Of a DNA stretch of 34,498 nt, positions 2,952 to 12,076 are shown one piece after another (within the stretch, counting starts at the first letter, position 1; every line of letters starts with the position of its first letter). The translations under genes were made by a program, and so were the position numbers. Source of the stretch: Terriglobia bacterium (lineage in GTDB: Bacteria > Acidobacteriota > Terriglobia > Terriglobales > SCQP01). The DNA is taken from the NCBI GenBank assembly GCA_021323595.1, contig JAJPKR010000009.1:1-34498 (forward strand). The letters are read 5' to 3'. The notes beneath the pieces are model-generated. The model was not told where the DNA came from, searched no databases, and was given only the letters and a program-made list of their open reading frames with translations.

Positions 2952-5202
2952 CGAGGCGCGGGCGGCGCGCGCCGCGGGCCGCGCCCGGGGCCGGCTCGTT
3001 GGCGGCGGCAGGCGCGGCGCCGGGCGCGGCGGGCGCGCGCACGAGCAGGGCGAAGCGGGGGAAGCGGAAGCGCGCGGCGGTCTCGTCAATGACGTTGACC
3101 TGGCAGACGTAGAGGCCCGGCGGCAGCTTGGCGAGCGGCACGTCGAGCTCGAAGACCGCAGCCTGGCGGCGCGGGTCGTTGACGCCGCGGCGGACGACCT
3201 CGGCGCTCTGGTAGCGCACGAGGCCGTCGCGCAAGAACTCGACATTCGAGCGCAGCTCGGCGGGCGCGCGGCGGCGGCCGGCGGCGTCGTACACCTCGAA
3301 ATAGATGTAGAGATGCTGGTTGGCGGCGAAGACGCGGGTGACGTCGGGGATCACCTGCTTGCCCTTCCAAACCAGCGGATTCTCGCCGCCGCCCGCCTTG
3401 ACCGCCTCGATGCGGTTGCCGACGAGGAGCGAGCTCATGGGCAGCTCGGCGGCGGCGCCGGGCGCGGCGGGCGCGAACGGGTCGGGCAAATCCAGCGAGG
3501 TCTCGAAGCTGCCGATCGTGCCGGTCTGGTTCTCGCGCACGATCATGCGCAAGCGATACCGGCCGGGCAGGAGCACGAAGCCGGTGTCGTACTGCAAATT
3601 CTTGCCGCGCAGCTCTCCCGGCGCGAGCTTGAGATTGAGGGTGTGGCGGATCTCGCCGACCTGCTCGCCGTCGGGCGCGCGCACGATGCCGGCGATCTCG
3701 AGCGAGGCGGCGCCGAGGCCCTTGCCGCCGCGGAAGGGAATCGCCGCGCCGGGCACGGCGAGCGAGACGGGCACGAACCAGCGGCGGCCGTCGAGGCGGA
3801 AGTAGCCGGTGGCGAGATACAGCGGCAAGTCGGTATCGGGCAGCGGGGCATCGAGCTCGTCTTGGATCTGGCGGGCCTTGTCTTCGCGCGTGAAATGGCG
3901 GTAGTCCTTGGCGGCGAAGTAGCCGGCGCGGTACTCGAGCTTCACGCCCGGCCGCAAGCACTGGACTTTGATGCGGCGGAAGCGGCCGTCCTCGCGGCGA
4001 TCCGTGCTGTGATAGCCGAGCACGTAATAGGCTTCGGTGTCTTGCTGCACGCGGGTGAAGACGCGGCCGAAGTCGTTGGTGTCGAGGAAGGCGCGGCCGC
4101 CGGTGTCGTTGGCGAGGGTGGTGAGGGTTTCTTGCGAGCTGAAGTTGCCGCCGAGGGCGTTGAGGGTCGCGGCGCCGGAGAAGGCGGCGACGCCGCGCAG
4201 GCTGGCGCTCTGCGCCTCGCCGCCCGGCGGCAGCGCTTGCAGGCCGCGAATGTCGAGGGGATAGACGGCGACGTTGTTCTTGACCAGGGCATCGGTGGCG
4301 GCGCGCAGGACGGATTGGTTTTCGATGCCGGTGCGGGTGAGGCCGGCGCTGAAATAGACGACCGACTTGCGCTGGTGGATGGCGCCCAGCATTTCGGCGA
4401 GGGACTCGAGGGCGGCCAATTCGCGATCGGTGTCGAAGATGTTGTACTCGGTGTCGTCGGGATTGAACGAGCCGCCGGTGTCGGGGGCGCCTTCGGCGCT
4501 GCCCGTGCCGCCCGCCTCGAAGCCTTCGCCAGAGGGCGCGTTCAAGGCGGCGAGGACGCGGTCGAGCAAGCCGCGGTCGGCGGTGAAATCGAGGTTGACT
4601 TGCAGCGACGTGCCGAGGCTGACGACGGCCACCAAGTCGGCGGGCGCCATTTGCCGGGCCACGTATTGCCGGGCGGCGGCGACGGCGGAGGCGACATCCC
4701 CGGGCTGCATCGAGGTCAGATCGAAAAACAGCACGATGAGGCGGCGATCGCGCGCCATCTCCGGCGCCGGCAGGCGCTGCTGCGGCGCCGGCAGCGCGGC
4801 GGCGGAAGGCGCGGGCGGCGCGGCCGCGGCTTCCACCAAGGGCGCGGCCGCGGCCTGCTCGTAGTCGAAGGAATCGATGGTTTGCGGCTTGCCGTCCTCG
4901 GTGATGCGGAAGTCGTTTTTCGTCAGGCCGCGCACCAGGCGGCCCTCCCGGTCGCGCACGGTGACGTTGACGACCACCAGCGCCGACGTCACCTCGATGT
5001 GATACGGCGTCCGCGGCGCTTGCGACTGGGCAGGCGCCGCAGGCGCTTGCGCCAGCGCGGTCATGGCCGCGAATGCCGCCAGCCCCGCCAGGAAGTGGTG
5101 GACGGGGCGATAAGCTTCGCAGGGCTTCGTTCTCCCACCCCAAGGCGCGCCGCTGCGCCTTGGGGACCCCGGGTCCGGCTGGCCGGGGCGGATCGGATCC
5201 AT
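2911..5202 (-). CDS. Secreted VWFA-domain protein of the acidobacterial type
   Basis: A protein of about 763 residues. A hydrophobic segment (FLAGLAAFAAMTALAQA) at about 40-56 resembles a signal peptide, followed by an immunoglobulin-like stretch containing VNVTVRDREG and DFRITEDGKPQ, which is characteristic of acidobacterial VWFA-related proteins. A von Willebrand A domain (RRLIVLFFDLTSM) follows; its metal site is the loose DxTSM form rather than DxSxS. The function of the family is unknown. The ATG at 5202 is chosen because GGAGG lies 9 bases upstream. This gives an unusually long n-region of about 38 residues, and roughly 27 of those residues are encoded by half of a dispersed repeat (5094-5173). 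The upstream frame stays open to 5541 but crosses the other half of the repeat. It lies on the same strand as, and downstream of, the TonB-dependent receptor gene. Confidence 0.82.
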   Translation of the reverse strand: MDPIRPGQPDPGSPRRSGAPWGGRTKPCEAYRPVHHFLAGLAAFAAMTALAQAPAAPAQSQAPRTPYHIEVTSALVVVNVTVRDREGRLVRGLTKNDFRITEDGKPQTIDSFDYEQAAAAPLVEAAAAPPAPSAAALPAPQQRLPAPEMARDRRLIVLFFDLTSMQPGDVASAVAAARQYVARQMAPADLVAVVSLGTSLQVNLDFTADRGLLDRVLAALNAPSGEGFEAGGTGSAEGAPDTGGSFNPDDTEYNIFDTDRELAALESLAEMLGAIHQRKSVVYFSAGLTRTGIENQSVLRAATDALVKNNVAVYPLDIRGLQALPPGGEAQSASLRGVAAFSGAATLNALGGNFSSQETLTTLANDTGGRAFLDTNDFGRVFTRVQQDTEAYYVLGYHSTDRREDGRFRRIKVQCLRPGVKLEYRAGYFAAKDYRHFTREDKARQIQDELDAPLPDTDLPLYLATGYFRLDGRRWFVPVSLAVPGAAIPFRGGKGLGAASLEIAGIVRAPDGEQVGEIRHTLNLKLAPGELRGKNLQYDTGFVLLPGRYRLRMIVRENQTGTIGSFETSLDLPDPFAPAAPGAAAELPMSSLLVGNRIEAVKAGGGENPLVWKGKQVIPDVTRVFAANQHLYIYFEVYDAAGRRRAPAELRSNVEFLRDGLVRYQSAEVVRRGVNDPRRQAAVFELDVPLAKLPPGLYVCQVNVIDETAARFRFPRFALLVRAPAAPGAAPAAANEPAPGAARGARRPRLVTRSAAPAPDPPC
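5094..5173. repeat. Dispersed repeat, left half, inside the VWFA coding region
   Basis: These 80 bases match 10873-10952 almost base for base, starting AGTGGTGG. They include a 28-base hairpin at 5138-5165 (11-bp arms CCCCAAGGCGC and GCGCCTTGGGG). The segment is read in frame as part of the n-region of the VWFA protein signal peptide. Confidence 0.85.
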
Positions 5203-5253
5203 CCGTGTATTCCTCCCGCCCCTCCCAGCCTGCGGCCTTGCCCTGCTGGCTTT

Positions 5254-5410
5254 TCCCACCCCAAGGCGCGCCGCTGCGCCTTGGGGGCCCCGGGCTCGCC
5301 CCGCTCCGGCGTAGTCAGCTGACAGGGACCCTTCCTGCGGAATTTCGCTGGTCTCCTTCTCAATCTCGGCTGGCGGGATTTTCCGTGGTGGACCCGGGGG
5401 CTGCCGCCAA
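5254..5410. repeat. Dispersed repeat, right half, upstream of the VWFA gene
   Basis: These 157 bases align without gaps to 10912-11068, with about 14 mismatches counted by eye (roughly 90 percent identity). The same 28-base hairpin recurs at 5259-5286, so the hairpin module is present twice in this copy. The 80 bases between the halves (5174-5253) are not repeated and carry the ribosome binding site and start codon of the VWFA gene. Confidence 0.85.
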
Positions 5411-5438
5411 TTGCGCGCGCGCAGGATCATCCTCATGG

Positions 5439-8400
5439 TCAGAAGCGATAGCGCGCCAGCAATTGCATGGCGCGCATCGGCCCGGCGGCGGTGACCTGGC
5501 CGAAGGTGGGAGAGTTGACGACGGTATCCACGCCGGTCCATTGCGGCGTGTTGAAGACGTTATTGGCTTCGAGGCGCAGTTCGAGCATGCGGTACTCGCC
5601 CAGGGCAATGGTTTTGCTGAGCGCGAAATTGAACACCAGCGAGCCGGGGCCGGGGATGATGTTGCGGCCAGCATCGCCGAATTCGCCGGGCGGCGGGACG
5701 GCGAAGGCGGCAGTGTTAAAAAATTCGGCGATGGAGGGAGCCGCGACGGCGAGCGGGCGGCCGGTGAGGTTGGGCCGCAGCGTGCCGTTGGTGCCGCGCG
5801 CCACGTCGCCGGGGTTGCCGAGCACGCGCGGGGTGAGCGGGGTGCCGGAGGCGATGGTGAAGTCGCCGCTCCACTGCCATTGGCCGAAGACGCGCGCGGC
5901 CCAGGAATCGCCGGCCAGCCAGCGGCGCTCCGGTCCCCAGGGCAGCTCGTAATCGAAGTCGCCCGTTAAGCGCTGGCGCACGTCGAAGCTGGACAAGCCG
6001 CGCTCGGCGGCGAGGTCGAGAGGATTCTGCGCGACGACGGTCGCGCCGCCGCCGATGGTGGAGGCGTCGTCAATGGATTTGGCCCAGGTGTAGGTGCCGC
6101 CGAGGGCGAAGCCGCCTTGCAGGCGCTTGCGCAGCCGCACCGAGCCGGCATGCAAGATGGAATCGCCGCCCGAGGTCTCCCACAAGAACGCGTCGACGCC
6201 GGGCAAGAGCAGGCCGAGCGGGCCGCGGTTCGGCGCGAGCGTCTGATCGAGGTTGGTGCCCTTGCTGCCGGAGTAGTCGAAGTTCAGGAGCAAGGTCGGG
6301 CGGAGCTGGCGCTGCAAATCGAGATTCCAGAGCTGCACGTAGCCGAGCCGGTAATTGGGATCGACGGCGAAGCCGTTGGTGATGACGCCGGGCGCGGGCG
6401 GAGTGAAGGCGGCGGCCATCGCGACCGGCGCCGCGACGGCGCCGATCACGGTTTGGCTGGTGGCGTAGGGCGGCTGCGCGGCGAGCTGCGTGGCGAGCGA
6501 GGCGTAGGCGCCGGTGTTGATATTGATGCCGTAGCCGCCGCGCAGGACGGTATTGCGCAGGGGCGACCAGGCGAAGCCGAAGCGCGGCTCGAAGCCGCCG
6601 CGGTCGGGGCGGATCAGGGCGAGCGGCAGGCGGCCGGAGTAGGGGCCGAGGCCGCCGGCGAGCACGGGCGCGACGGCGGCGAGCGCGGAGCTGGACGCGA
6701 ACTGGAGATCGAGATTCGCGAGGCGGTTGTATTTTTCGGTCAGCGGCGAGACGAATTCATAGCGCAGGCCCCAGTTGAGGGTGAAGTTGCCGCGCGCGCG
6801 CCAGTTGTCTTGCGCGAAGAGGTCCCAGGAGTCGCCGCGGAAATACTCGGCGCCGGCGCCGAAGTTGACCGACGCCTGCTGCGCCTCGCCGAGCAGGAAG
6901 TCGGCGAAATCGCTGCCGGTGCCGGGCGCGGGCGCGCCATTCACGAGGCGCGCGGTGTAGAGGCCGCTGAAGACGAACGAGCCGCGGGGGTTGGCGTCGG
7001 TTTCGGGGTTGACTTGCAGGCGGCGGAAATCGCCGCCGAAGCGCCAGAAATGCTTGCCGTGAAACCAGATCACGAAGTCGCTGAACGAGCCGGTTTGGTT
7101 GCGGACGAGCGAGGGGGCGACATCGTTGAGGCTGGTGAAGCTGCTGAAGGCCAGGCCGGGCAGGCCCCAATCGAAGGGGGCGGCGGCGATGCCGGTGATG
7201 CCGGCGGCGCCGGCGACGTTTTGCACGAAGGCGTAGAGGTTGGTGGTTTCGACGCGCTGGCGGTTGAAGACGACGCGCATGATGTTGGTGACGCGGCCGG
7301 CGCCGCGCACATACCCGACGTTGACGTTGAGGCCGCGCGAGCGAGTGAGGCCGGCGATGGTGGGCAAGGCGTTGGGCTGGGCATCGCGGCTGCCGCTGTA
7401 GTTGACGGCCAAGCTGAGGTTGTTGCGCGCGCCGCCGCGGCCGAAACCGGCGGGGGCGGGACCGAAGTTGTGCATCAGGCGCAGCGCCGCCTCGTCGCTG
7501 CTAGTCTTGGAAGTCGTCGCGTAATAGAAGTTCTGGGCGGCGCCGGGCAGATTGGGCGCGGGGATGAACGGCAAGAGCGCCTGCGCCACGGGACTGATCG
7601 CGGGCACAGCGTCGTTGGCGAGCGGCTGGCCGGTGGCGGGATCGTACAGCACGATCGGCTGGCCGGCGCGGGTGGTGGCGCCGCTGAAGTCGCCGGCGCG
7701 CTCGGCAACCGTGGGCACGGTGGAAAAGGCGGTGAAGGGACTGGAGGAGTGATTGCCGGTGACGTTCAAGAAGACGAAGGTCTTGGGGCTGTTGACGAGC
7801 TTGGGAATCACCAGCGGACTGCCCACCGCGAAGCCGAAGCGCTGCTGCAAGAAGGCGGGCTTGGGCGCGGGGACGCCGGTCAGGGCGAAGGGCCGGGCAT
7901 CAAGGGCGGAATCGGCTAGGGAGTAATAGAGCGAGCCATGCGGGCGATTGAAGTCGAAACCGCCGCGGCGGCGGGCGATGAAGATCATGGGTCCGCCGCG
8001 GAAGCCGCCGGGGCCGCCGCGGCCGGGCGGGCCGCCGGGGCCGTTCTGGCGAAAGCGGGCGAAGCGGCGCTCGGCGCCGGGGCTGAGCATGCCGGGCTCG
8101 GTCTGGCCCATGCGGCCGGCGATGGTGACGGCTTCGGTGGAGGTGTCGGCGGCGCCGTTCAAGCCGGGCACGGCGGCGCCGCCGGCGAGATTGGCGGCGT
8201 TGCCTTCTTCGAGATTGCTGAAGCCGGCGCCGCCGCCGGCTTCATTGTCTTGCAGCGTGAGATTTTGCGGTCCGGCGGCGCCCAAATCCGCGCCCGCGCC
8301 CGCGCGCGCGGGCGCGCCGGCGGCAGCTTGGAGGCGCGCCAGGAGCGTCATCTCGATGAGCACGCGGCTGCGGCCGGCGGCGACGGCGATGGTTTGGCCG

Positions 8401-8669
8401 CTGGGGGCGAAGCCGGCGAAGGTGGCCCGCAGCGCGTAGCGGCCGGGGGCGGGCAGATGCAATTCGAAGCTGCCATCGACGCCGGTGGCGGTGATGAAGC
8501 GCCGGTGGAGGGCGGCGCTGGCGGCGACGATGGTGACGCCGGGCAGGGGCGTGCGCCCGGAGAGCACCCGTCCGCTGAGGACCACGGGACCCGGCGGCGC
8601 TTGCGCGCGCAACGCCGCCGCGCCGCCGTATAGCAGCACGGCCATGCTGAAAATCGTGAACTTTCGCAC
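5439..8669 (-). CDS. Oar-like TonB-dependent outer-membrane receptor
   Basis: A protein of about 1076 residues in the outer membrane. After a signal peptide (VRKFTIFSMAVLLYGGAAALRAQ) comes a carboxypeptidase-regulatory-like beta-sandwich (VLSGRVLSGRTPLPGVTI, about 30-110), a low-complexity Gly/Ala-rich stretch, then a plug and a large beta-barrel ending in RYRF, with the terminal Phe typical of barrel proteins. Oar-like receptors are abundant in acidobacteria; the ligand cannot be read from the sequence. A GTG start at 8669 is chosen because GGAG precedes it and it begins the signal peptide; the ATG at 8708 adds 13 residues and has no ribosome binding site. The VWFA gene follows on the same strand after the repeat-containing gap. 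Confidence 0.88.
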   Translation of the reverse strand: MRKFTIFSMAVLLYGGAAALRAQAPPGPVVLSGRVLSGRTPLPGVTIVAASAALHRRFITATGVDGSFELHLPAPGRYALRATFAGFAPSGQTIAVAAGRSRVLIEMTLLARLQAAAGAPARAGAGADLGAAGPQNLTLQDNEAGGGAGFSNLEEGNAANLAGGAAVPGLNGAADTSTEAVTIAGRMGQTEPGMLSPGAERRFARFRQNGPGGPPGRGGPGGFRGGPMIFIARRRGGFDFNRPHGSLYYSLADSALDARPFALTGVPAPKPAFLQQRFGFAVGSPLVIPKLVNSPKTFVFLNVTGNHSSSPFTAFSTVPTVAERAGDFSGATTRAGQPIVLYDPATGQPLANDAVPAISPVAQALLPFIPAPNLPGAAQNFYYATTSKTSSDEAALRLMHNFGPAPAGFGRGGARNNLSLAVNYSGSRDAQPNALPTIAGLTRSRGLNVNVGYVRGAGRVTNIMRVVFNRQRVETTNLYAFVQNVAGAAGITGIAAAPFDWGLPGLAFSSFTSLNDVAPSLVRNQTGSFSDFVIWFHGKHFWRFGGDFRRLQVNPETDANPRGSFVFSGLYTARLVNGAPAPGTGSDFADFLLGEAQQASVNFGAGAEYFRGDSWDLFAQDNWRARGNFTLNWGLRYEFVSPLTEKYNRLANLDLQFASSSALAAVAPVLAGGLGPYSGRLPLALIRPDRGGFEPRFGFAWSPLRNTVLRGGYGININTGAYASLATQLAAQPPYATSQTVIGAVAAPVAMAAAFTPPAPGVITNGFAVDPNYRLGYVQLWNLDLQRQLRPTLLLNFDYSGSKGTNLDQTLAPNRGPLGLLLPGVDAFLWETSGGDSILHAGSVRLRKRLQGGFALGGTYTWAKSIDDASTIGGGATVVAQNPLDLAAERGLSSFDVRQRLTGDFDYELPWGPERRWLAGDSWAARVFGQWQWSGDFTIASGTPLTPRVLGNPGDVARGTNGTLRPNLTGRPLAVAAPSIAEFFNTAAFAVPPPGEFGDAGRNIIPGPGSLVFNFALSKTIALGEYRMLELRLEANNVFNTPQWTGVDTVVNSPTFGQVTAAGPMRAMQLLARYRF

Positions 8670-8960
8670 GAGAACTCCGCTCCCGCTGCGCGCACCGCTG
8701 GCAGGCATTACGCCGCGACGCGCGGCGCAGTTACAGGCGGGGCCGAGTCTGCGCCGCGGGGCGCCGGCGCGGGCTGCGGTGCGGCGCGGAGTTCACGATC
8801 GTGTAGTGAGGGCAGTGTCGCGAGCAAAGCTGGCAGGCAGGAACGCGTGCCCCCCGATTGGGCGCGAACACGGCGGGGAGGAATGCCTGCGCTGCGATGC
8901 GCCCGAGGGGTGGCAGGCTAAGGATGCCTGCGCCACGATGCGCCCGAAGACGCGGTGCGG
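8670..8960. other. Intergenic region with palindrome cluster
   Basis: There is no gene here. The part nearest kdsC (8832-8950) is filled with repeats; the part nearest the TonB receptor should hold that gene's promoter, but I see no clear -10/-35 pair. Confidence 0.5.
8832..8950. repeat. Cluster of REP-like palindromes and a direct repeat
   Basis: Variants of the palindromes at 189-270 occur at 8832-8851 (with a mutated right arm) and 8912-8934 (GGCAGGC and GCCTGCG arms). A direct repeat of about 26 bases, ATGCCTGCGC followed by CGATGCGCCCGA, occurs at about 8883-8909 and 8924-8949. The cluster sits just past the 3' end of kdsC. Confidence 0.65.
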
Positions 8961-9515
8961 CTAGAGGTAGCCGCGCGCGGCGGCGCGCCATTTGCCCTGG
9001 GTCTTGAGCACGAATTCGATGAGATCGCGGGCGGCGCCGGCGCCGCCGGGGCGGCGCGCCACGAAGTGCGCCAGGGCCAGCACCTCGGGCCGCGCATTGG
9101 CCGGGGCGGCGGCCAAGCCGCAGGCGCGCAGCATGGGCAGATCCACGAGGTCGTCCCCCATGCAGCAGGCTTCGGCGGCGGCGACACCGGCTTCGCGCAG
9201 GACTTCGGCGAAGGCTTCGCCCTTGCGCTCGATGCCCTGGCGGACGAAGTCCATCTTGAGGTCGCGGGCGCGCGCCGCGAGCGATTGCGAGACGCGCTTG
9301 GTGATGACGCCGGTGAGCAGGCCGGCGCGGCGGGCGAGCATGATGCCGATGCCGTCGTGGGCGCTGAAGCCCTTGACTTCGACCAGGCGCTGGGCGGAGA
9401 GGGGGAAGTACCAGATGGTGCCGTCGGTGAGGACGCCGTCCACGTCGAACAGCAGGAGGCGGATGCGGCGGGCGCGGGCGCGCGCGTCGCGAGCGAGGAT
9501 GGGAGCGGAGGGCAT
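8961..9515 (-). CDS. kdsC: 3-deoxy-D-manno-octulosonate 8-phosphate phosphatase
   Basis: A cytoplasmic HAD-family enzyme of 184 residues that hydrolyses KDO 8-phosphate to KDO, a lipid A-core sugar. The catalytic motif FDVDGVLTDG contains Asp24 and Asp26. GVITKR follows at about 78-83, and the metal-binding motif MGDDLVDLPML at about 140-150. The length matches the stand-alone KdsC family. It starts 10 bases after the kdsD stop and is almost certainly co-transcribed with it. The C-terminus (KTQGKW) is normal for the family. Confidence 0.93.
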   Translation of the reverse strand: MPSAPILARDARARARRIRLLLFDVDGVLTDGTIWYFPLSAQRLVEVKGFSAHDGIGIMLARRAGLLTGVITKRVSQSLAARARDLKMDFVRQGIERKGEAFAEVLREAGVAAAEACCMGDDLVDLPMLRACGLAAAPANARPEVLALAHFVARRPGGAGAARDLIEFVLKTQGKWRAAARGYL

Positions 9516-9525
9516 GAGGGGCGAA

Positions 9526-10485
9526 TCAGAGCAGTTGCGTGGTCCAGAGATCGTGGAGGTGAATCAAGCCGGCGAGGCGGCCGTCGCCCTCGACGACCAG
9601 CAGCGCCGTGATTTTGCGCTGCTCCATGAGGCGCAGCGCGGCGGGGGCGAGCTCGGCGGCGGCGATGGTGACGGGCTGACGGGTCATGTAGGCTTCCGCC
9701 GCCATCTCGAGCGCCTGCGCGCCATGGCGTTCGAGCAGGCGGCGGAGGTCGCCATCAGAGATGACGCCGAGGAGGCGGCCGTCGGGGTCGAGCACGGCGG
9801 CGACGCCGAAGCCCTTGCGGCTCATTTCATAGAGGACGTCGTGGAGGCGGGCGGCGGCGGGGACGATGGGCAGTTCGTCGCCTTTGTGCATCAGCTCGGC
9901 GATAGGGGTGAGGCGCTTGCCCAGGCGGCCGCCGGGATGGAGGGCGGCGAAGCGCTCGGCGCTGAAGCCTTTTTCCTCGGCCAGCGCCATGGCCAGGGCG
10001 TCGCCCAGGGCGAGCATGGCGGTGGTCGAGGCAGTGGGCGCCAGGCCCAGGGCGCAGGCTTCCGCTTCGACGCTGACGTCGAGCACGGTGTCGGCGGCGC
10101 GCGCCAGCGGCGATTGCGGCGCGCCGGTCATGGCGATCAGCGCCAGGCCCATGCGGCGGATCGGGCCGAGGAGGTCGAGCAACTCTTCGGTGTCGCCGCT
10201 ATAGGAGAGCGCCAGGACCACGTCGCCGGGCGCGAGCATGCCGAGATCGCCATGGCGGGCTTCGGCGGGATGCAAGAAGAGCGCGGGCGTGCCGGTGGAG
10301 CTGAGGGTGGCGGCGATCTTGCGCGCGACCAAGCCGCTCTTGCCCATGCCGCTCACCACCACGCGGCCGGCGCAGGCGTGCATCAGCGCCACCGCGCGGC
10401 GGAAGCGGTCGTCCACGCGGGCGATGAGGGCGCGCACGGCGGCGGCTTCGATTTCGAGCACGCGCTTGGCGCTGTCTTCGATCAT
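9526..10485 (-). CDS. kdsD: Arabinose-5-phosphate isomerase (KdsD/KpsF)
   Basis: An enzyme of 319 residues interconverting ribulose 5-phosphate and arabinose 5-phosphate, the first committed step toward KDO. An N-terminal SIS domain carries GMGKSG (about 46-51), the histidine-containing stretch HPAEARHGDLG and SYSGDTEE; two CBS domains fill about 195-319 (for example ISDGDLRRLL). The ATG at 10485 starts MIEDSAKRVLEIEA, the usual N-terminus. The frame is open further upstream, but that part runs antisense through the tRNA gene and a repeat and is not part of the protein. It is first in an operon with kdsC. No strong ribosome binding site is visible. Confidence 0.93.
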   Translation of the reverse strand: MIEDSAKRVLEIEAAAVRALIARVDDRFRRAVALMHACAGRVVVSGMGKSGLVARKIAATLSSTGTPALFLHPAEARHGDLGMLAPGDVVLALSYSGDTEELLDLLGPIRRMGLALIAMTGAPQSPLARAADTVLDVSVEAEACALGLAPTASTTAMLALGDALAMALAEEKGFSAERFAALHPGGRLGKRLTPIAELMHKGDELPIVPAAARLHDVLYEMSRKGFGVAAVLDPDGRLLGVISDGDLRRLLERHGAQALEMAAEAYMTRQPVTIAAAELAPAALRLMEQRKITALLVVEGDGRLAGLIHLHDLWTTQLL

Positions 10486-10606
10486 GGGGGCAGGCCCATG
10501 GTAGCACCCGGCGCCGGCCGCGCTCCGGCGCAGGGTGGGCGGGGCGAGCGGCAACGGCGGGTGGATTGGCGGCCGGGAAAGCCCGCCCGGGCGGCGCGAA
10601 ACGCTC

Positions 10607-10615
10607 TGGTATATT
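10607..10615 (+). promoter_or_regulatory. Extended -10 promoter of tRNA-His
   Basis: TGGTATATT provides a TGn extension plus a TATATT -10 hexamer about 31 bases before the mature tRNA, the only AT-rich hexamer in a very GC-rich gap. No good -35 is present, which is common with an extended -10. Confidence 0.5.
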
Positions 10616-10645
10616 GAGACTGGAGCGCCGTCGCGGCGCCGCCGT

Positions 10646-10722
10646 GGTGGGTGTAGCTCAGCTGGTAGAGCGCTGGATTGTGGCTCCAGTGGCCGAGGGT
10701 TCAAATCCCTCCACCCACCCCA
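10646..10722 (+). tRNA. tRNA-His (anticodon GTG)
   Basis: A full cloverleaf can be drawn: acceptor GTGGGTG/CACCCAC (10647-10653 with 10712-10718), D stem GCTC/GAGC, anticodon stem CTGGA/TCCAG with loop TTGTGGC and anticodon GTG at 10680-10682, T stem GAGGG/CCCTC with loop TTCAAAT. The extra G at -1 (10646) facing discriminator C73 is the histidine identity element, and CCA is encoded at 10720-10722. No terminator is visible downstream; a decayed reductase gene begins within about 30 bases. Confidence 0.96.
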
Positions 10723-10752
10723 AGTTTCCCCCGATACGATCCTTACCGCGGT

Positions 10753-11490
10753 ATGGGGAAGATCGACCCGCCCGAGTCCGACGATGCGGGGATGAGCCGC
10801 ACGCTGACGATCGCCAGCGCGCCGTTCGAAGAGCGGCTGCTGTTCGCGATGCGGCTCCGCGACACGGCGTTCAGTGGTGGGCGGGGCGATAAGCTTCGCA
10901 GGGCTTCGTTCTCCCACCCCAAGGCGCGCCGCTGCGCCTTGGGGGCCCCGGGCTCGCCCCGCTCCGGCGTAGTTAGCTGGCAGGGACCCGCCCTGCAAAA
11001 TTTCGCGGGTCTCCCCCTCGATCTCGGCTGGCTGGATTTTCAGGGGTGGACTCGGGGGCTGCCGCCAAAGGCGTTTTGCGGAACCTGCCGCTGGGCAGCG
11101 AGGTCGCGATCGATGAACCGGCGGGGGCGTTCACGCTGCACCGCGACACCGGCCGCGCCGCGGTCTTTCTCGCGGGCGGAATTGGCGTCACGCCGTTCCG
11201 GAGCATGATCCGCCAAGCCGAGCACGACGGGGTCGCGCGGCGGCTGTACCTCTTCTATTCGAATCGCAGGCCCGAGGACGCGGCCTTTCTCGATGAGTTC
11301 CGCGAGATGGCGGCCGGGAACGGCGAGTTCAAGTTCGTGCCGACGGTGACGCAAGCCTGGCGTTCGGGCTGCGAATGGCAAGGGGAAACGCGCTATATCG
11401 CGCCGGAACTCATCGTCCGGCACGTGGGCGCGCTGCAGGGCCCGATGTATTACCTTGCCGGCCCGCCCGCGATGGTCCAAAGCTTGATCC
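10753..11490 (+). pseudogene. Ferredoxin/flavodoxin reductase-like gene, truncated and split by a repeat
   Basis: Two pieces of one FAD/NAD(P)-binding oxidoreductase. The first (10753-10872) reads IDPPESDDAGMSRTLTIASA through RLRDTAF, part of the FAD domain. The second (from 11067) continues KGVLRNLPLGSEVAIDEPAG, FLAGGIGVTPFRSMIR (the NAD-binding start), LFYSNRRPEDAAFLDEF and YYLAGPPAMV. The pieces are in different frames; deleting 10873-11066 (194 bp) joins RDTAF to KGVLRN in frame. About 50 N-terminal residues that the family normally has are missing: upstream there are only 30 bases before tRNA-His. After GPPAMV the sequence departs from the family and turns into an antitoxin-like tail. 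The gene is certainly broken; the role of its ancestor is inferred from family only. Confidence 0.85.
10873..11066. mobile_element. 194-bp dispersed repeat inserted in the reductase gene
   Basis: The element runs from AGTGGTGG to GCTGCCGCC. Its limits are fixed in two ways: both ends coincide with the ends of the copy at 5094-5410, and removing it restores the host reading frame. It encodes no protein. A 28-base hairpin with perfect 11-bp arms sits at 10917-10944. I see no terminal inverted repeats and no convincing target duplication; near-identical GTGGTGGAC-like words at the two ends are in direct orientation. It could be a non-autonomous element or a mobile structured RNA; the type is unknown. 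Confidence 0.8.
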
Positions 11491-11705
11491 AAGAGCGGGT
11501 GGATGCGGGCGTGAAGTTCCTGGACGGGGTGCTGGCGACGGGGCGACCGGTGCTGATCCACCGCAAGGGCAAGCTGCTGCGGATTGTGGCCGAGCCGGCG
11601 CCGGACCGGCTGCAGCGGCTGAAACGGCGGCCGCGGCTGCTGCGGGGCGACCCCGAATAGATCGTCCATCTCGACTGGTCGCGGTATTGGAAGCCGCGGC
11701 GATGA
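11491..11705 (+). pseudogene. VapB-like antitoxin remnant fused to the reductase fragment
   Basis: The frame of the reductase remnant continues without a stop into GVKFLDGVLATGRPVLIHRK and LLRIVAEPAP, which resembles the core of Phd/VapB-type antitoxins, then RLLRGDPE and a TAG at 11658-11660. Reading past the TAG gives IVHLDWSRYWKPRR and a TGA at 11703-11705 that overlaps the ATG of vapC (ATGA), the coupling expected in a toxin-antitoxin operon. GDPE-x-IVHLDWS is a C-terminal signature I associate with VapC-paired antitoxins in acidobacteria (recollection, not a search). So the TAG looks like a single-base nonsense change, and the normal antitoxin N-terminus is missing. Confidence 0.6.
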
Positions 11706-12076
11706 TTCACCTCGACACGCACGTCTTGGCGTGGCTGGCGGCGGGCGAGGCCGCGCGACTGAGCCCGGCGGCGCGGCGGCTGATCGCGAGCGAACCACTG
11801 GCGGCATCCCCGATGGCGGTATTGGAGCTGCAGTTCTTGCACGAAATCGGGCGTCTGGCGGAGAACGCCGCATCCATCATGGCGGCCTTGGGCGATGATC
11901 TGGGCGTCACGATTGCCGATCTATCCTTTGCGGCGGCGGTGGCGGAAGCGCGCGAGGAGTCTTGGACGCGCAATCCCTTCGATCGTTTGATCGTGGCCAG
12001 CGCCCGCGCGGCGGGCGCGCGGCTGGTGAGCAAGGATCCGTTCATCCGCCGGCATTTCGCGGATGCGATCTGGTGA
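11702..12076 (+). CDS. vapC: VapC-family PIN-domain ribonuclease toxin
   Basis: A PIN-domain protein of 124 residues; VapC toxins cleave RNA (often tRNA or rRNA) using a Mg-binding acidic pocket. The expected acidic residues are all present: Asp5 (LDTHVLAW), Glu42 (VLELQF), Asp94 (RNPFDRLIVA) and Asp112 (SKDPFI). Length and fold pattern are normal, so the toxin looks intact. Its ATG overlaps the stop of the damaged antitoxin frame. An intact toxin beside a broken antitoxin suggests that the toxin is poorly expressed, that another antitoxin compensates, or that the fusion still works. Confidence 0.88.
   Translation: MIHLDTHVLAWLAAGEAARLSPAARRLIASEPLAASPMAVLELQFLHEIGRLAENAASIMAALGDDLGVTIADLSFAAAVAEAREESWTRNPFDRLIVASARAAGARLVSKDPFIRRHFADAIW

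Follow-up and report, generated by a model that had tools for sequence, protein, structure and literature searches.

An exact insertion in a reductase remnant

Within the 34,498-nucleotide window (the whole stretch of DNA analysed), a tRNA-His gene (10647-10722) is directly followed by a reductase remnant that lacks ~45 N-terminal residues and is split by a 194-bp segment. The C-terminal tail of the remnant resembles part of a Phd/YefM antitoxin (a weak match, below the curated cut-off), and a PIN-domain gene follows at 11702-12076. We refer to the inserted segment as W1 and to a second copy elsewhere in the window as W2, and divide both into the modules listed below.

5094-5408, forward strand: second copy W2 (modules A5-H-T-H-C1-E3), 315 bp
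10752-10872, forward strand: reductase remnant, left part; N-terminal part missing
10873-11066, forward strand: whole element, copy W1 (modules A5-H-C1-E3), within the reductase remnant; 1-bp uncertainty at the ends
10875-10912, forward strand: module A5 (left end), with conserved TGGTGGGCGGGGCGATAAGCTTCGCAGGGCTTCGTTCT
10881-10894, forward strand: left arm of the closing stem (GCGGGGCGA.TAAGC), pairing with TCGCCCCGC at 10954-10962
10913-10951, forward strand: module H, made of CCCA, an 11-bp hairpin (10917-10927 with 10934-10944) and GCCCCGG
10954-11012, forward strand: module C1, the right arm of the closing stem and then a hairpin, GACCCGC (10985-10991) with GCGGGTC (11005-11011)
11014-11066, forward strand: module E3 (right end), with a sharp end ...GGTGGACTCGGGGGCTGCCGCC
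11013-11017 and 11054-11058, forward strand: subterminal hairpin of E3, CCCCC with GGGGG
11067-11071, forward strand: right flank AAAGG, fitting the rule of a G at +6 after GCCGC
11067-11663, forward strand: reductase remnant, right part; its C-terminus passes into the Phd/YefM-like antitoxin tail

Joining 10872 to 11067 produces one open frame, reading ...AMRLRDTAF up to the junction and KGVLRNLPLGSE... beyond it. The closest reductase homologue, from a genome of the same family (G005, 65% identity), reads AMRMRNTPYKRRLGALPLGSE with no gap at this point. The preliminary description had placed a 194-bp insertion at 10873-11066, and the relative's intact reductase, which reads through the junction, shows this placement to be exact; the limits carry an uncertainty of 1 bp, since one A may be counted on either side. 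Homologous reductases were found without the segment. It had also been proposed that removing the segment restores a broken reductase gene. Removal does restore the reading frame but yields no working gene: the reductase was already truncated at both ends and is a remnant independently of the insertion.

Modular architecture

W1 is one arrangement of a modular family. Copies have fixed ends in common, A5 (GGTGGGCGGGGCGATAAGC...) on the left and E3 (...GGTGGACTCGGGGGCTGCCGCC) on the right, and nearly every copy in the same genome (G000) follows the order A5, any of H, T or T2, C1, K and E3. Between these ends lie the core C1, T or T2, H repeated 0-3 times and K repeated 0-5 times, and copy length ranges from about 100 to 550 bp; some G000 copies are truncated or partly tandem. 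W2 had been described as having the same limits as W1, which holds for both ends but not for the interior, where an additional T and a further H module bring it to 315 bp. The short forms (C2, C13, C33 and C53) have lost the interior from the H loop up to K or E3. H and K have GCTGCGC-like words in common, and recombination between repeated arms would be a simple explanation of the short forms.

Two copies have neighbours worth recording. W2 abuts the start of a minus-strand gene below 5094 that encodes a vWA-domain-like secreted protein; the signal-peptide frame of this gene runs on into the element, which may now supply its start codon. At C33 of G000 (L032, 100-1050), an antitoxin-like gene and a PIN-type-toxin-like gene form a pair between two degraded element copies.

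Copy number and distribution

The preliminary description had called for a search of the host and its relatives, and many copies beyond the initial two were recovered from both. BLAST against G000 (3.55 Mb, 65 contigs) returned 58 pieces in ~30 places, with a best E of 1.5e-97 and further copies at 1e-77 to 1e-37, a multiplicity far above chance, and end-specific sequence models located 38 left ends and 24 right ends. Counts were higher in a genome of the sister genus (G001), with at least 67 left ends and at least 42 right ends. Five other genomes (G002, G007, G004, G006 and G008) held 5 to 28 left ends each and G009 had one weak left-end match; the left-end model had no match in G003 or G005. 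Genomes of a neighbouring family contained no copies except for single weak, near-threshold matches in one of them, and no element match was obtained in the viral contigs, plasmids and phages searched. A pattern search for A5 across genomes returned only four loci, all in three same-family relatives, apart from one match in an Atopobiaceae genome that is probably due to chance.

We read 25 complete copies in G001, of which those in the commonest length class were 94-100% identical to one another (mean 97.9%); the flanks of the 25 copies are unrelated. Having left dozens of near-identical copies in this genome, the family must have moved recently. Many of the G001 left-end matches fall within ~100 bases of a contig end (such as C8, C15, C46, C47 and C52); the element therefore seems to break assembly, and the count of copies is a minimum. 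Most copies are intergenic and occur in either orientation to neighbouring genes, and some begin at once after a stop codon.

Insertion sites and flanking sequence

Three empty sites could be inferred from homologous proteins: the W1 reductase, an acetyltransferase gene of G002, interrupted by a related element with other ends (genus g3) but uninterrupted in a G006 homologue, and a short G001 gene resembling an antitoxin, for which G047 has a homologue. At each, the bases beyond the element are host-gene codons, for K (W1), W (the antitoxin-like gene) and E/A (the acetyltransferase). In G001, the constant GCCGC is followed by T (32/32), A (93%), three free bases and a G at +6 (32/32); the G at +6 recurs in 13 of 15 G000 copies. 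At a G frequency of 0.32, such conservation is expected by chance with a probability of about 1e-16 in G001 and 2e-5 in G000. Because the bases past the element belong to the host gene, the G at +6 is a property of the target. Left flanks have just a G at -1 (87% in G001), with no other position over 0.45 bit.

Both absences reported at the outset, of terminal inverted repeats and of a clear target duplication, were borne out. Neither in the recent G001 copies nor elsewhere do the ends (TGGTGGGCGGGG and GGCTGCCGCC) form inverted repeats, and in 25 G001 and 19 G000 copies the left and right flanks had no more words of 3 to 8 bases in common than shuffled pairs. A 3-bp target duplication was considered as a source of the variable NNN and rejected, as the left and right words disagree.

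A diverged A5-T copy in G004 (L158, ~560-800) lies between direct repeats of ~18 bases (TTGCCGGGCCAGTTAAGA), a feature seen at no other copy read. A second element, with other ends (TGCTTGGCGCGGGCCCC ... GCGGCCCCCGCGA), is present in high copy number in genus g3 (L040 of G002, 1473-1718; L047, L048 and L060); it has the same H hairpin and a similar C1 hairpin, and here too NNNG stands beside the L040 acetyltransferase insertion.

Folding and covariation

The strong 28-base hairpin first noticed in W1 is real, with an 11-bp stem and a 6-base loop at 10917-10944. H is an 11-bp hairpin in a constant surround (CCCACCCC...GGGGNCCCCGG), whose inner pairs vary on both sides across G000, G002/G007/G010, G003, G005 and G040; 92.7% of its cells are paired, compared to 54% or less when slid. 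A long closing stem joins the left end to the start of C1 (GCGGGGCGA.TAAGC with GCTTC.TCGCCCCGC) and has different bases in G004 and G001, with pairing kept. Using rows that were picked and trimmed by hand, so that the counts lean towards structure and are not a blind test, we found covariation at 5 pairs of H (11 cells versus 2.3 cells in shuffles) and 8 double changes in the closing stem (versus 2.6). The hand-chosen alignments thereby support the view that both stems keep their pairing between genera through compensatory changes. In the E3 hairpin (CCCNC/GNGGG), the N pair is C-G in G000, A-T in G001 and G-C in G010.

Single-sequence folding was modestly better than that of shuffled sequences (z -1.4 to -2.2). 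In a strand-bias test, G-U and C-A mispairs were about equally common in stems, and therefore neither one-strand RNA nor single-stranded DNA is favoured as the working form. Rfam matches in 4900-11300 comprised nothing but tRNA and one sub-threshold chance match (E up to 1); a group I or group II intron was rejected for want of a catalytic-RNA match in this interval. H-type hairpins (CCCACCCC-stem-GGGGNCCCCGG) also occur inside other repeats of genomes without A5 or E3, namely G003 (L042, L049 and L056), G005 (L044 and L051) and G040 (L045), the last extending the reach of this hairpin into another family of the order.

Candidate enzymes and alternative origins

No autonomous partner bearing these ends was found in G000. 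Genes for IS110 DEDD transposases (PF01548), IS91-type Y2 transposases (PF04986; search positive in 0 of 14 control genomes) and reverse transcriptases (RVT_1) were not found in G000 or G001, both of which are 95% or more complete. Each of these genomes does hold one gene for an IS200-like Y1 transposase, and Y1 is also present in G002 and G007. Movement by this resident tyrosine (HUH) enzyme, in the way proposed for REP sequences and RAYT proteins, would suit hairpins near both ends together with the lack of inverted repeats and target duplications, as in IS200/IS605-type movement, and the failure to find the three other enzyme families in G000 and G001 also speaks for it. The Y1 genes themselves (G000 L064, 1100-2000; G001 L180), however, have on either side not element modules but inverted repeats of their own, of GGGGAC type (AAAAGGGGACAGCCTGAT and AAACYGGGGACGTCC), the left flanks of the element have no constant target of 4-5 bases and neither a GTAG nor a CGTC tag is seen. 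Moreover, G006 and G004 lack the gene while holding diverged A5 copies (with no clear E3), and G003 has the gene but no A5. We therefore treat Y1 as a candidate for E3-type elements that is unsupported by shared repeats, and as the mover of the family we find it possible but doubtful.

Other origins fare worse. A DDE-type miniature transposon of the ordinary sort, its inverted-repeat ends and target duplications lost to decay, would be small, non-coding, present in many copies and mostly intergenic, as observed, but the recent near-identical G001 copies lack the same signatures, so decay cannot explain their absence, and we consider this origin unlikely. Strong folds without inverted repeats, and one 5'-truncated copy (C11:37146-37358), would fit a structured RNA copied back to DNA by a reverse transcriptase, in the manner of a bacterial SINE-like element; against this stand the failure to find an RVT_1 gene in G000 or G001, the 3'-truncated copies, which are common too, and the lack of strand bias in G-U pairs, which together make it very unlikely. 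It is hardly credible that the family is not mobile at all, its copies being ancestral hairpins of intergenic DNA (terminators, for instance) that local duplication multiplied. The placement of most copies between genes, some of them at once after a stop codon, could be read in that way, but the copies have unrelated flanks, lie in both orientations to their neighbours and underwent a recent genome-wide burst in G001, and the exact insertions within reading frames, with in-frame empty sites, refute it for the family.

Comparison with known repeat families

The closest design to that of the present family is BOX of Streptococcus pneumoniae and S. suis, in which fixed end modules likewise surround variable, exchangeable middle modules. 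BOX elements consist of boxA, boxB n times and boxC, with boxD and boxE/boxF ends also found in S. suis; they are about 67-637 bp long, non-coding and predicted to fold, have a folded transcript and are assumed to be mobilized in trans (PMC3049150). Inverted-repeat ends and target duplications are reported for BOX, and ISSpn2 has been proposed as its partner (PMC3049150), whereas the present family has neither signature, is GC-rich and follows the NNNG rule on its right flank. The CIR, ERIC and YPAL repeats resemble it as short, non-coding, dispersed sequences with long stem-loops. In the parts of the source consulted, CIR (Caulobacter/Brucella repeats) is recorded as lacking inverted-repeat ends and as having independent stem-loops on its 5' and 3' sides, ERIC and YPAL duplicate their target, and module exchange is not among the features described for them (PMC2229807).

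REP/REPIN sequences served by RAYT are similar in their hairpins, mostly intergenic positions and single resident Y1 gene, but aligned copies of our family have no GTAG/CGTC tag beside the hairpin and its repeats do not flank the Y1 genes of G000 and G001. Acidobacterial tyrosine transposases flanked by terminal inverted repeats have been described (PMC3733652), and the G000 and G001 Y1 genes are similar to these. Non-autonomous elements derived from IS200/IS605 match the family in having hairpins near both ends, no inverted repeat and no target duplication, and differ from it in the constant 4-5-base target on the left. DDE-type MITEs are set apart by their terminal inverted repeats and target site duplications. 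We found no paper describing the family in the literature searched, which does not show that none exists; the family is probably new.

Interpretation

The suggestion that W1 is a small mobile unit of unknown type is supported by the many dispersed copies and by reductase homologues without the segment. That it is a mobile element we regard as very likely; that it is, more specifically, a copy of a non-autonomous, protein-free, modular mobile family within one uncultured acidobacterial family is probable. On the best reading, the mover acting in trans is a recombinase and the design is BOX-like with different ends. A5 and E3 would bound the element on the left and right, and the series of hairpin modules between them could shrink, grow or exchange members. 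Copying or movement would depend on an enzyme acting in trans that recognizes the ends in folded form, most likely in single-stranded DNA, and joins E3 to the 5' side of NNNG; the number of modules would change through recombination between repeated arms. Single-strand, hairpin-recognizing movement is a possibility that we put forward tentatively. More speculative, and rather unlikely as a whole, is the broader proposal of a modular, hairpin-built family that inserts at NNNG without target duplication through a recombination chemistry not yet tied to a known class of transposase, its evolution proceeding by the exchange of hairpin cassettes within constant ends.

In kind the family is ordinary, as bacteria hold many small non-autonomous repeats; its unusual points are the module exchange, the clean insertion without the usual end signatures and the strict right-flank rule. 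In bacteria, small dispersed repeats are usually assigned to an insertion sequence from their matching ends. Here those usual end signatures are missing, although the copies are recent and near-identical, the empty sites exact and the insertion rule sharp; it is thus feasible to name the candidate enzymes and test them individually. Swapping of hairpin modules, in turn, offers a readable record of how such elements evolve.
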